Of a stretch of 11,321 nt of DNA, positions 4,616 through 9,321 are shown one piece after another (position 1 is the first letter of the stretch; each line of letters begins with the position of its first letter). Made by a program: the position numbers and the translations under genes. The DNA is from Candidatus Uhrbacteria bacterium (GTDB lineage: Bacteria; Patescibacteriota; Patescibacteriia; UBA9934; GWF2-40-263), in contig CAIKXH010000141.1 of assembly GCA_903831335.1 (NCBI GenBank), positions 1-11,321 on the forward strand, read 5' to 3'. The notes under the pieces are model-generated. The model was not told where the DNA came from and did no database searches. It saw only the letters and a program-made list of their open reading frames with translations.

Positions 4616-4691
4616 GGCGGTCATGGTGAAAAGGTTATCACAGGGGTTTGTGGTACCTCTATTACGGGTTCAATTCCCGTTGACCGCCCCA
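4616..4691 (+). tRNA. tRNA-His, anticodon GTG
   Basis: The gene encodes the extra G at position -1 (4616) that marks tRNA-His, paired with discriminator C73 (4688). The acceptor stem GCGGTCA/TGACCGC, D stem GTGA/TCAC, anticodon stem GGGGT/ACCTC and T stem ACGGG/CCCGT all pair; the loop TTGTGGT has GTG at 4650-4652. CCA is encoded at 4689-4691. It reads CAC and CAT codons. Confidence 0.97.
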
Positions 4692-5463: not shown

Positions 5464-6228
5464 ATGCATATGAACTATTCGAAAGAGGTTATTCGCGGGC
5501 TTGAGGCATATGGCCTTGACGAAAAAGAAGTCAGAGTCTATCTCGCGGGGCTCGAGATTGGAACTGCGTCCGTTTTGGAACTTTCTCGAAGGACAACACT
5601 TCCCCGCACAACGCTTTATCCTATTTTGGAACGATTAGAACATCACGGAATATTTAAAGTTGGGAAACAAAAAAATACAAAAGTGTATATTGCAGAATCT
5701 CCTGAAACACTTAAACGACAATTTGACGAACGCGCCGTTATTTTTTCTCAAACACTCCCCGCTCTTGAAACAATCTCGGGCTCCCTTCATGCAGGGCGAG
5801 GTGTTACATTTTACGAGGGCTCTGATGGATTCAAGCGCGTATGGAAAGCGATTATTAATTCCGGGGTAAAAGAATATCGCATGATCACAAGCGGAACAGG
5901 ACTTTTGGATTATGCAAAGGAACCATATATTGTGAAGCGTGTGATTGCGGAGCGCATGGAAAAAAAGATTTTCAGCAAACAACTTATTCGTGACAGTAAA
6001 GATGCACGTACGATTGTAAAAAAAGATAAAAAAGAATTGCGTGAATCCAGATTTCTTCCATCTGATATTCATCTACCCTCAACGGTCATTGTGTTTGCAG
6101 ATCAGGTTGCGTTTATCACGACACGAAAAGAAAATACAATGATTCTCCTTGCGTCTGGCGATGTTGCACTGACGTATAAAACATTGTTCGATCTTATCTG
6201 GGCAAAAGCGGATGTTGGGAATGTTTGA
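5464..6228 (+). CDS. TrmB-family transcriptional regulator, 254 aa
   Basis: The N-terminus is a TrmB-type winged helix-turn-helix: LEAYGLDEKEVRVYLAGLEIG, then ASVLELSRRTTLPRTTLYPILERLEHHGIFKV as recognition region and wing. The remaining 150 residues (from about GVTFYEGSDGFKRVWKAI) match the effector-like C-terminal part found in short TrmB-like proteins; no sugar-binding signature is evident, so the ligand is unknown. The start is 5464 or 5470; both ATGs lie in the palindrome ATATGCATAT. The longer frame from 5428 begins inside the -35 box and is rejected. Two palindromes upstream suggest it controls itself and the divergent zinc-ribbon gene. The stop TGA at 6226-6228 lies in the left arm of a long inverted repeat. 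Codon use is A/T-ending, unlike the divergent neighbour. Confidence 0.88.
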   Translation: MHMNYSKEVIRGLEAYGLDEKEVRVYLAGLEIGTASVLELSRRTTLPRTTLYPILERLEHHGIFKVGKQKNTKVYIAESPETLKRQFDERAVIFSQTLPALETISGSLHAGRGVTFYEGSDGFKRVWKAIINSGVKEYRMITSGTGLLDYAKEPYIVKRVIAERMEKKIFSKQLIRDSKDARTIVKKDKKELRESRFLPSDIHLPSTVIVFADQVAFITTRKENTMILLASGDVALTYKTLFDLIWAKADVGNV

Positions 6229-6412
6229 GGTACAGATTACAAATAAGAAATACAAATATACAAATTTGAAGACTCATAGTCGAAGTGACAATGAGTCTTT
6301 TTGTTATTTTTTGAGATTATCATGAATATATCGTAAAACTTTTTTGACCAGATTAAACGCAAATAATCGAATCTGTATATTTGTATGCCACGATTTGTAA
6401 TCTGTACCTCAA
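6225..6412. repeat. Nested long inverted repeat between trmB and polA
   Basis: Outer arms 6225-6244 (TTGAGGTACAGATTACAAAT) and 6393-6412 are perfect 20-bp reverse complements. After 5 and 6 unpaired bases, inner arms 6250-6262 (ATACAAATATACA) and 6374-6386 pair perfectly over 13 bp. The left arm includes the TrmB stop codon; the right arm ends 9 bases before the polA extended -10. The trmB terminator lies inside the loop. The arms are built of short related words (ATACAAAT, ATTACAAAT). Confidence 0.9.
6269..6302 (+). terminator. Intrinsic terminator of the TrmB-family gene
   Basis: AAGACTCAT (6269-6277) pairs perfectly with ATGAGTCTT (6291-6299), followed by a T-run to 6302. It lies inside the long inverted repeat. 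Confidence 0.85.
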
Positions 6413-6438: not shown

Positions 6439-9165
6439 ATGAAATCCTCAAACAAAACCCTTTATATTCTCGATGGAAATGCCCTTCTGCACCGTGCGTG
6501 GCATGCGATTCCGCCACTTGCTACACAAGAAGGTTTGATCGTAAATGCGGTTTACGGATTTACAAACGTGGTTGAAAAAATTCGTTATAGCTTTAAGCCG
6601 GATTATCTTTGTGTTGCATGGGATTTGCCTGGAAAGACATTTCGTCACGAGGCTGTTGAAAGTTACAAAGCCACACGGGCAAAAAAAGAACCTGAGTTGT
6701 ATGCACAGATTCCCATGATTCAAGAATTACTTTTGTCTTATCATGTCCCATCCTATAGCGTGCCTGGGTTTGAGGCCGATGATGTGATTGGGACTGTTGC
6801 AGAAATCGTAAAAAAACAAAATGTAGACGTCGTGATTGTGACAGGTGATATGGATGCGCTTCAACTTGTTGATGACCATGTTTCTGTTCTCTCGTTTGTA
6901 AAAGGTGTGACAGAAACAAAAGTGTATAACGAGGCCGCGGTTGTCGAACGGATCGGATTAAAGCCTGAGCAACTCATTGATTATAAAGCGCTCCGGGGCG
7001 ACACGTCCGATAATATTAAAGGAATCGCAGGAATCGGAGAAAAAGGCGCGCTCGAATTGATTCAGAAATATCAAACAGTCGATGGAATTTTTGAAGCATT
7101 AAAAAAAGGTGAAGTCGCGTCGAAGTTTGCAAAAAAACTTGAAGGTAAAGAAAAGGTGGCAGAAGAATCAAAAATGCTCGTGACAATTATTCGAGATGTT
7201 CCATTTAAGTTTCATTTGGATGAAACGGCTTTTCAAAAGCCTGACCTCGACGTACTCCTCGAAAAGTTTCGTCGGTACGAATTTCGTTCACTGCTTAGAA
7301 AGTACAGCAACGTTTCGACGGGAACAGAAATGCCACCTCCGCCAATAGATGATATGAGAGGAGATACGTCATCTCGAGCGGAGCAAAGCGGAGCCGAGAG
7401 GTCTTTTCGTTCGTCGTCGAACTCCTCAGTCGAGATGACAAAGAATACACAAATCATTCGAGATCTTGCTTCCCTCGAATCTTCCCTCGCTCTCTTATCG
7501 AACGAGAAGATTTCGATCGTGATCGGTTCGCAAACCCCAGACTTATTTGGAACAACACTCGCAGCGATTGCTCTGTCGGATGCTCAGAAGACAATATGTA
7601 TTGCGAATCCAAATAAGGAAATGTTGGAGTTGGTTTACAAGAAAATTTCCGCAACGCCATTTCTTGTTGTGCATGATGAAAAGAAACTTCTGCACATATT
7701 CTCTAAAACTTTGTCTCGTTCCGTATCGGTTTTCGATACACTCATTGCATCGTATCTCCTTCATGCAGGAGACCGATCAGATGATCTTGCGGAGATTTTG
7801 TATCGAGAATTACGTATAAAGGCAGAATTACCAATAAACTTTGCAACAGAAAAAGATTACAAGCATGTAAGTGAGTGTGCGACACAAATGATTCCTTTGC
7901 AAAAAAAATTACGGAAAGAATTGGAAAAAACCAATCAGGAGAAAGTGTTTGATGAGATTGAAATGCCCCTTGTTCCCGTGTTGTATAAAATGGAAGATGC
8001 CGGAATCGAAGTTGATGTAAAAGCCCTGAGTGTCTTTTCGAAGGAACTAGAAAAAAACATTCGATCTCTCGAAAAACAGATTCGTGATATTGCGGGAGAA
8101 GAAGTGAACGTCAATTCCCCATCACAACTTGCAACGGTTCTGTTTGAAAAATTGCAAATTCCAACAAAGCACATCAAGAAAACAAAAACGGGATATTCTA
8201 CCGCAGCAAGTGAGCTTGAAAAGATTGTGGATGAACATGAAATCGTGCCAATGATTTCTGAGTATCGCGAACTCGCAAAATTGCAATCAACGTATGTTGA
8301 ATCCCTTCCAAAACTTGTTGCAAAAGACGGTCGGGTTCACACAACATACAACCAAACCGTGACCGCCACCGGAAGACTCTCATCGAGCGACCCAAATTTG
8401 CAAAATATTCCTATTCGCACAGAACTTGGAAGAGAAATTCGCAAAGCGTTCGTGGCGGCGAAGGATCATGTTCTCGTATCTGCTGATTATTCGCAGATTG
8501 AATTGCGACTCGTCGCGATTCTTGCGGATGACAAACCGTTCATCAATGCGTTTAAGCATGGGGCAGATATTCACACGAGAACCGCTGCGGAAGTTTGGGA
8601 AATTGAAGAATCTGAAGTGACAAAAGATCAGCGCCGCGCGGCGAAGGCAATCAACTTCGGGATTATGTATGGGATGGGGCCAAGAGCATTATCGCGATCA
8701 ACTGGACTTACGATGGAAGAAGCAAAAACATTCATAGAAAAATATTTTAAAATCCATATCGCTGTTCGAGAATATCTCGATACACTAAAAAAGAAAGCGC
8801 ACGATGATGGATTTGTCGAAACGCTCTTTGGACGTAGACGATACTTTCCTGAGATTGAATCTGGTGTGCAAATGCTTGTTGCACAAGCAGAACGCATGGC
8901 ACAAAACATGCCAATTCAGGGAACACAGGCGGATATTGTAAAAATGGCCATGTTGTCTGTTGATGGTTGGCTTAAACAAAGTCAGCTTAAAGCAAAGATT
9001 CTTTTGCAGGTTCACGATGAACTTGTTCTCGAGGTGCATAAGGATGATGTGGATATTGTGTGCAAAGGTTTGAAAGAAATGATGGAAGGTGTGGCTCAAT
9101 TCGAAGTTCCGCTTCTTGTCGAAGTGAAAGCTGGGATGAATTGGGGGGTAATGGAGGAAGTATAG
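6439..9165 (+). CDS. polA: DNA polymerase I, 908 aa
   Basis: Family A polymerase for Okazaki-fragment processing and repair. Residues 1-300 are the 5'-3' exonuclease/flap nuclease, with metal-binding acids at D12, D62, E112, D114, D115, D137, D139, D188 and D191 and the helix-hairpin-helix GIAGIGEKGA. A linker (about 300-340) contains an inserted palindrome. Residues about 345-520 correspond to the 3'-5' exonuclease domain, but the DxE motif is replaced by IVIGSQTP, so proofreading is presumably lost, as in Taq-type enzymes. The polymerase domain has motif A DYSQIELR (D683), motif B RRAAKAINFGIMYG (R732, R733, K736, F740, Y744) and motif C VHDE (D860). The start at 6439 fits the promoter; an in-frame ATG at 6385 would add 18 unrelated residues encoded by the inverted-repeat arm. 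A terminator follows. Confidence 0.98.
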   Translation: MKSSNKTLYILDGNALLHRAWHAIPPLATQEGLIVNAVYGFTNVVEKIRYSFKPDYLCVAWDLPGKTFRHEAVESYKATRAKKEPELYAQIPMIQELLLSYHVPSYSVPGFEADDVIGTVAEIVKKQNVDVVIVTGDMDALQLVDDHVSVLSFVKGVTETKVYNEAAVVERIGLKPEQLIDYKALRGDTSDNIKGIAGIGEKGALELIQKYQTVDGIFEALKKGEVASKFAKKLEGKEKVAEESKMLVTIIRDVPFKFHLDETAFQKPDLDVLLEKFRRYEFRSLLRKYSNVSTGTEMPPPPIDDMRGDTSSRAEQSGAERSFRSSSNSSVEMTKNTQIIRDLASLESSLALLSNEKISIVIGSQTPDLFGTTLAAIALSDAQKTICIANPNKEMLELVYKKISATPFLVVHDEKKLLHIFSKTLSRSVSVFDTLIASYLLHAGDRSDDLAEILYRELRIKAELPINFATEKDYKHVSECATQMIPLQKKLRKELEKTNQEKVFDEIEMPLVPVLYKMEDAGIEVDVKALSVFSKELEKNIRSLEKQIRDIAGEEVNVNSPSQLATVLFEKLQIPTKHIKKTKTGYSTAASELEKIVDEHEIVPMISEYRELAKLQSTYVESLPKLVAKDGRVHTTYNQTVTATGRLSSSDPNLQNIPIRTELGREIRKAFVAAKDHVLVSADYSQIELRLVAILADDKPFINAFKHGADIHTRTAAEVWEIEESEVTKDQRRAAKAINFGIMYGMGPRALSRSTGLTMEEAKTFIEKYFKIHIAVREYLDTLKKKAHDDGFVETLFGRRRYFPEIESGVQMLVAQAERMAQNMPIQGTQADIVKMAMLSVDGWLKQSQLKAKILLQVHDELVLEVHKDDVDIVCKGLKEMMEGVAQFEVPLLVEVKAGMNWGVMEEV
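7368..7439. repeat. Palindromic element inserted in frame in polA
   Basis: The 72-bp segment is bounded by perfect 10-bp inverted arms, GTCATCTCGA (7368-7377) and TCGAGATGAC (7430-7439). Inside lie two copies of AGCGGAGC (7377-7384, 7387-7394) and a hairpin GTTCG-TCGT-CGAAC (7408-7421 region). It encodes about 24 low-complexity residues (S/R/E-rich, roughly 311-334) between the flap-nuclease and the exonuclease-like domain. Its length is a multiple of three, so the frame is kept. It looks like the GTCAT-YTCGA palindromes scattered in many bacterial intergenic regions, and recalls the Rickettsia palindromic elements that insert in genes. Confidence 0.75.
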
Positions 9166-9243: not shown

Positions 9244-9321
9244 AAGTAGCTGGTAGCGAGTAGTAAGTAGCTAGGTTCTAGAAAACGTTTATAAAACCTC
9301 GCAACTTGCTACCAGCCACTT
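9244..9321 (+). repeat. Imperfect long hairpin forming the holA leader
   Basis: AAGT (9244-9247) pairs with ACTT (9318-9321), GCTGGTAGC (9249-9257) with GCTACCAGC (9308-9316), AGT (9259-9261) with ACT (9304-9306), and AGGTT (9273-9277) with AACCT (9295-9299). The left arm is built of repeated GTAGC/AGTAG words. The right arm ends 12 bases before the holA ATG, and no Shine-Dalgarno sequence is visible in that gap. Confidence 0.7.

Follow-up and report, generated by a model that had tools for sequence, protein, structure and literature searches.

A palindromic element in the linker of DNA polymerase I

The window, by which we mean the whole stretch of 11,321 nucleotides that was analysed, carries on its plus strand the polA gene for DNA polymerase I at 6439..9165. 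The mechanically determined open reading frame begins at 6385; the coding sequence was taken from the ATG at 6439 and gives a protein of 908 aa. It is identified by the NCBIfam models NF004397 and TIGR00593 for DNA polymerase I (E below 1e-270) and by Pfam matches to 5'-nuclease and DNA_pol_A. A preliminary description of this DNA had pointed to a 72-bp segment with perfect 10-bp inverted ends and an internal 8-bp direct repeat, inserted in frame between the nuclease and the exonuclease-like domains of the polymerase. This anatomy was found as described. The arms lie at 7368-7377 and 7430-7439, the direct repeat AGCGGAGC at 7377-7384 and 7387-7394, and the 72 bp (7368..7439, plus strand) amount to 24 codons that are stop-free in the polA frame and specify residues about 310-334, SSRAEQSGAERSFRSSSNSSVEMT. 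Separate-domain NCBIfam models place the 5'-nuclease at residues 6-291 and the exo/pol part at residues 330-904, the latter overlapping the element by about five residues (330-334), and the closest solved polymerase, 6vde, aligns over residues 5-292 and 360-903; full-length PolA models of NCBIfam span both parts. The limits of the two domain models and the 6vde alignment thus locate the element in the linker, in agreement with the position proposed for the 24 residues.

The element has the layout of an inverted REP-type dimer. Its 5' half-element (7367..7404, plus strand) carries a CGTC tag at 7367-7370 and reads AT-CTC ... GAG-GT-CT, with the direct repeat within its core, and its 3' half-element (7405..7439) lies on the minus strand, where it shows a TGTC tag and an AT-CTC start. 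The closing pairs of the 5' half include one T-G wobble, and this half closes if RT is allowed. The 3' half does not close by the half-element rule given below; in the related genome G001 the copy reads GAG-AT-CC. An 18-nt stretch of the element (7410..7427, plus strand) recurs exactly at three other places (blastn; L244, L239 and L229) in the genome of the window, G000, which comprises 852,255 bases and is 81% complete.

By itself, this DNA anatomy is not beyond chance. Perfect 10-base inverted repeats with spacers of 20-80 nt occur four times in the window against a mean of 1.29 in shuffled sequence, and 17 of 200 shuffles contained at least four. The hairpin fold of the element has a z of -1.48, and 16 of 200 shuffles fold equally well.

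Several other repeats are present in the window. At and beyond the end of a TrmB-like gene, ahead of polA, 20 bp are repeated perfectly in inverted orientation (6225-6244 / 6393-6412) around a nested second pair (6250-6269 / 6367-6386); for this repeat (6225-6412), a comparison with 80 kb of stretches fetched from G000 gave no match. Directly 3' of the tRNA-His gene (4617-4691), the segment 4691-4815 looks like another long palindromic unit: its inverted repeat is perfect over 19 bp and encloses a 23-bp pair of 83% identity. The tRNA-Arg gene on the minus strand (2166-2242) is framed by inverted repeats (2145-2267) that reach past its acceptor stem. An imperfect palindrome of about 80 bp lies between polA and holA (9244-9321), and it is possibly another dispersed repeat because related pieces occur in L223 (G000 contig C13).

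The element belongs to a dispersed, base-paired repeat family

The preliminary description had suggested a search of the source genome for further copies. A similarity search of G000 with 92 bp and an exact-arm dimer pattern both returned the polA element itself as the sole match, a result that taken alone would speak against a repeat. The family is variable, however, and a looser pattern was adopted. With this pattern, GTCATYNYGANYG, the expected copies did appear: G000 contains 60 matches and none for the reversed pattern. At least five of the 60 are ordinary coding sequence and no repeat, and many of the matches form inverted pairs at distances of roughly 50-110 bases. The family copies of G000 are inverted pairs at most places and lie mostly outside conserved genes. 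The corresponding counts for pattern and reversed control in the congeneric genomes are 22 and 1 (G001), 33 and 1 (G002), 28 and 3 (G003) and 7 and 0 (G004).

A half-element has the layout [T/C]GTC-AT-xyz, core, z'y'x'-AT-CT, and two inverted half-elements with their tags pointing outward make up a REP dimer. Of the 96 half-sites of the form GTCATnnnGA in the stretches fetched from G000, 73 are closed by their own complementary triplet; for a single different common triplet the average is 6.7 closures. This control is stricter than, and supersedes, an earlier shuffle control (mean 2.4) that counted different triplets only. Closure by one or more of the remaining common triplets that were tried is also seen for 43 of the 96, which we attribute to GAGATCC within the partner half, and a lone closure is therefore no proof of a half-element. 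In G001 16 of 26 half-sites close with their own triplet against 2.1 for the control (any other triplet: 14), in G003 11 of 17 against 0.1 (any other: 1). Seven distinct closing triplets are in use in G000, and we read this covariation as a base-paired design. The segment ATxyz is predicted to be fully paired in 65 of the 73 closing halves. Their tags are TGTC (65), CGTC (7) and AGTC (1), the search seed having contained GTC and the 5' AT and left the base before GTC and the 3' AT free; their tails are CTC (53), CTT (19) and CCT (1) under a closing rule of AT followed by two pyrimidines that a CCA tail would have passed. The core is mostly 13-27 nt long (14 commonest cores listed), and GAGCG..AGCG cores like that of the polA half-element are among the commonest in other half-elements. 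Both orientations, with the GTC ends outward, were present in 31 of the 45 REP loci fetched from G000.

Decisive for the polA element is this genome-wide family (60 matches against none, 73 of 96 closures against 6.7) and not the local anatomy. The same two results bear out the earlier proposal of an inserted palindromic repeat.

The family extends beyond the genus. A 17-base piece of the polA element matches at least 119 stretches in genome contigs of several phyla; among the matches listed, about 75 nt suffice for 68 of 126 sites to close as a half-element, and many of the non-closing sites listed look like ordinary coding sequence. Across the phylum, GTCATYNYGAGCGNAG is present in 99 of 379 genomes and the reversed pattern, by our count, in 3. 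The motif was found in 0 of 32 fetched stretches around Y1_Tnp, the one transposase type searched; these represent 30 distinct places, L254 and L268 duplicating places already included, and most belong to other genera.

In-frame copies in other genes

Seven genes of G000 contain in-frame copies, i.e. polA, uvrA, a miaB-type gene, secA, leuS, the gene of a copper-type P-ATPase and that of a Wzy_C membrane protein of the O-antigen ligase family. Palindromes do become protein sequence in this Patescibacteria-like genome, as had been proposed, and the six further copies show that polA has no special place among the targets. In secA and the P-ATPase gene the copy is a single half-element; across the coding copies, each of the three reading frames is used. 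Twenty of the 45 REP loci lie within an open stretch of at least 100 codons, and coding copies are the seven within family-matched genes only; 7 of 45 is no unbiased rate, since the stretches were picked by pattern matches and gene-breaking out-of-frame insertions are unrecognisable. Among those dropped as coding copies were L226 (a 113-aa ORF without Pfam match), the second copy of L224 (upstream of the natural GatC start), L242 (ahead of a glycosyltransferase domain) and L229 (ahead of a DnaK-like start, judged by eye).

The dimers tend to be open in several frames. Over 33 dimer spans, with two places counted twice, stop-free frames average 2.00 of 6 as compared to 1.54 in shuffled sequences, a modest excess; the polA copy has four.

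In the three genes besides polA for which congeners were compared, the copy is confined to G000: it is found in one of four genomes for uvrA, in one of five for leuS and in one of four for secA, where the half-element occupies a variable stretch of about equal length. No target-site duplication, a trait of MITEs, was seen by eye at the boundaries of the polA, uvrA and leuS copies. Where the UvrA of G000 has its REP, that of G001 (L291) contains VGVPFACHPQHLRRVVGTHAG, an unrelated sequence that might be another repeat.

The polA linker in related genomes

Of the five congeneric genomes, only G004 lacks an element in the linker of polA; G000 to G003 each have one. The preliminary description had regarded absence of the 24 residues from relatives as support for an insertion. 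Absence applies to G004 and to the family at large, for which no half-site was found by pattern in the polA linkers of 32 other genomes, yet G001 to G003 have an element as well. A polA match was obtained in 39 of the 42 genomes of the family; the 32 linkers are what is left without the five congeners, G013 (no N-terminal half) and G063 (a match of 26 residues). The linkers vary freely in length and sequence across the family. That of G028 contains a short CGTC-ATCTC-ATGCA-GAGAT hairpin, which was kept out of the count and could be a variant unit.

The type of element differs at the same site. The two halves are CTC/CTC in G000, CCC/CTC in G001 and TGC/TGC in G003, whose TGC-type dimer sits at the same place of polA; the 5' half of G002 is nearly the same as the CCC-type 5' half of G001. 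Among the pattern matches, the 3' half-type GTCATCTCGACTG occurs solely at polA of G000, G001 and G002. Compared with G000, the 3' block is identical at 36 of 36 nt (12 codons) in G001 and at 35 of 36 nt in G002, whereas the stretches of about 60 nt that flank it are 52-67% identical (67% and 58% for G000 and G001). At the left boundary of the insert a stretch of 9 nt differs between G000 and G001/G002, and the frame and the right boundary are the same.

The conservation reaches the level of codons. At residues that are identical in both proteins, G000 and G001 use the same codon at 18 of 19 positions inside the element and at 331 of 668 outside. The values are 16 of 19 and 351 of 685 for G002, and 7 of 9 and 358 of 678 for G003. 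In the 3' block the codons agree at 11 of 11 positions between G000 and G001, equalled by 1 of 658 windows elsewhere in polA, and at 10 of 11 between G000 and G002, equalled by 0 of 675 windows. The high codon match inside the element indicates constraint at the DNA level or recent exchange and not simple drift.

A wider comparison included 14 PolA proteins, that of the window and 13 others at 72% identity or more. Four have the CTC-type peptide (P0001, P0002, P0003 and P0005), two the TGC-type peptide (P0007 and P0011) and eight have other linkers; to judge by their linkers, P0002, P0005 and P0007 appear to be the proteins of G002, G001 and G003. In a PolA tree from which the linker was left out, each of the two main clades contains both element types; only 8 of its 14 inner branches have good support, and the clade of P0001 and P0011 is supported at 85/89. 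Searched as a peptide, the P0011 linker resembles the leuS insert at E 5.5e-6, and two further REP places of G000 follow at E 1.8e-4 and 0.02. Weak peptide matches elsewhere in related genomes were obtained for the linkers of P0004 and P0006 (E 0.003-0.004; L290 1-36 and L238 4486-4527), a hint that other repeats may have settled in the same linker. The linker peptide of P0008 gave one match (E 0.037), and the search with that of P0009 gave no match to other places. We take it that some PolA linkers of the family resemble translations of other repeats; inverted repeats in these other polA linkers are short or absent.

At the level of the phylum, we searched 25 REP-rich genomes for elements in polA. 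A polA match was present in 24, and 30 loci were fetched, 20 of them with a suitable ORF. Among these 20, L310 alone has a convincing linker element. It belongs to G353, from another family of the class, whose PolA contains three in-frame REP-like stretches, in the 5'-nuclease part, in the linker and further downstream. L309, L320 and L322 showed isolated motif matches, which were taken as chance.

Origin and function of the polA element

We consider it very probable that a REP-type dimer entered the polA linker, became translated and was kept, most likely as an inert extension of the linker. According to this model, a short hairpin repeat that resides at dozens of places in this Uhrbacteria-like genome, and in other bacteria too, would spread as dimers in trans or by recombination, presumably mobilised by a putative enzyme acting in trans. 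Dimers tend to be open in several frames, and those landing in length-tolerant linkers would be translated and kept, while others would be lost. Insertion at polA would date from an ancestor shared by part of the genus, or would have happened more than once, and the 24 residues would form a flexible, presumably disordered and otherwise inert extension; a tolerated linker is the most likely role of the peptide. In some relatives an element of another type would later have taken its place, probably because resident copies recombined with it or inserted anew. Points against the explanation are the unclosed 3' half in G000, the unremarkable fold energy, the lack of an exact second copy, the 43 half-sites that other triplets close as well and the motif-free Y1_Tnp stretches. 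One result counts against the inert linker: the excess of codon identity inside the element is not predicted for a neutral passenger inherited from a common ancestor.

One alternative would be a low-complexity linker rich in Ser, Arg and Glu that is palindromic by chance and contains no inserted element. Arms near chance, a fold z of only -1.48, the single copy in exact searches and the freely variable linkers of the family would all fit such a view. It nevertheless deserves hardly any credence in the face of 60 pattern matches against none, complementary triplets, the same insert at the site in congeners and 18 nt identical to other copies. Alternatively, the element could be kept for a role as nucleic acid, as an mRNA or DNA hairpin in RNA stability, attenuation or protein binding, with the peptide as a by-product. 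The 3' block, identical at 36 of 36 nt between G000 and G001 amid flanks of 67% and 58%, and its rare codon agreement with G001 (11 of 11; 1 of 658 windows) and G002 (10 of 11; 0 of 675) argue for this role. We regard it as improbable, as the element is absent from G004, was not found in 32 other genomes of the family and is of another type in G003, its 3' hairpin is unclosed in G000, and recent exchange between lineages would yield the same identity. Somewhat less probable still is an insert selected because it alters the activity of PolA, by the spacing of domains or a mutator effect, a speculation of Di Nocera et al. on repair genes that are decorated with REPs. Both polA and uvrA carry elements in G000, the PolA of G353 has three REP-like stretches, and the examples given in the available text of PMC3733652 include many repair genes; secA, leuS, the miaB-type gene, the P-type ATPase and Wzy_C carry copies as well, however, and relatives without the insert retain polA.

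A different question is whether the polA copies of G000 and of the G001/G002 clade descend from one inherited copy or from independent insertions at a hotspot. The 9-nt difference at the left boundary, the near-identical 3' block between divergent flanks and the presence of both element types in both main clades of the tree would suit independent events, whereas the common frame and right boundary would not. Among the pattern matches the GTCATCTCGACTG 3' half-type, moreover, is found at polA alone, in G000, G001 and G002, and no donor is visible, although G000 and G002 are incomplete. Independent insertion is a possibility that we hold at well below even chances. We offer with similar reserve a related suggestion: the polA linker of the genus may be a docking site where two or more types of REP, and perhaps further repeat families, have inserted and replaced one another, the type following the resident REP stock by gene conversion. 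If this were true, the repeat population of a genome would set the sequence of its PolA linker.

An inserted dimer that serves as linker is our preferred explanation. With it, the in-frame palindromic repeats for which Rickettsia is best known reach into the Patescibacteria with their small genomes, and a single covarying family is seen both between genes and within them. A warning follows for Ser/Arg-rich linkers of these proteins: such a linker can be a translated repeat.

Comparison with known palindromic repeats

The preliminary description had named the Rickettsia palindromic elements (RPEs), on which Ogata et al. have reportedly worked, as the precedent. This is appropriate for the kind of event; the closest counterparts are the CGTC-tagged REPs and, among the RPEs, RPE-4, RPE-6 and RPE-7. 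The Patescibacteria had been put forward as a new setting, and the in-frame copies are indeed found there, but the element family also occurs in other phyla. New are the case in an Uhrbacteria-like member of the Patescibacteria and the polA series with a change of type at one site; CGTC-tagged REPs, RPE-4/-6/-7 and DNA polymerase I as a target are already known from the available texts of PMC3733652 and PMC3767692. Among the titles listed, no report on palindromic repeats of Patescibacteria, CPR or Uhrbacteria was found in a search that covered few subscription papers, and the titles listed in a search by sequence words look unrelated. Further repeat literature, available in part, includes a review of MITEs (PMC10969869) and RepRanger (PMC12306157).

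In the available text of Di Nocera 2013 (PMC3733652), CGTC-tagged REPs are described as mostly dimers, chiefly intergenic and without a dedicated transposase, from five phyla among which the Patescibacteria are not included. They also lie within genes, often of replication and repair, DNA polymerase I and excinuclease genes included. The family described here shares with them, as described there, a CGTC/TGTC tag at one end, complementary AT at stem positions 1-2 and inverted dimers. CGTC REPs have a stem of 8-9 bp, a loop of 4-5 nt and a CCA tail according to the same text, whereas here the closing helix, ATxyz, has 5 bp, the core that it encloses mostly measures 13-27 nt, and the tail reads CT[C/T]. 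HH dimers predominate among them, the head end being left undefined in that text; here both orientations occur in 31 of 45 loci, with the GTC ends outward. With REPINs, going by partial descriptions, the family shares the short non-autonomous dimer of two inverted REP units; the GTAG tag of REPINs and GTAG REPs (RAYT), in contrast, is absent from all 73 closing halves, and the RAYT link of REPINs has no counterpart in the 32 Y1_Tnp stretches (motif in none).

RPE-4, RPE-6 and RPE-7 are presented in the available text on R. japonica (PMC3767692) as ATGAC-rich palindromes for which orthologues carry differing element types. Their targets include tRNA synthetases, an O-antigen ligase, a subunit of the excinuclease and DNA polymerase III alpha, and insertions lie at the same sites in aligned Rickettsia orthologues. 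Compared by these descriptions, ATGAC-bearing palindromes in frame in genes are common to both systems, and so are different element types at one orthologous site, here the polA linker. A difference from the same-site insertions of the RPEs is that the uvrA, leuS and secA copies are each confined to one genome of the congeners compared. Since stem, loop length and tail differ, the element is not placed in the families CGTC-1 to CGTC-4; by analogy, it appears to behave like them and like RPE-4/-6/-7. Within a single genus, polA has linkers with either of two REP types, linkers of other kinds and linkers with none, a series relevant to the choice that has been raised for RPE-4/-6/-7 between a hotspot and one diverged insertion.
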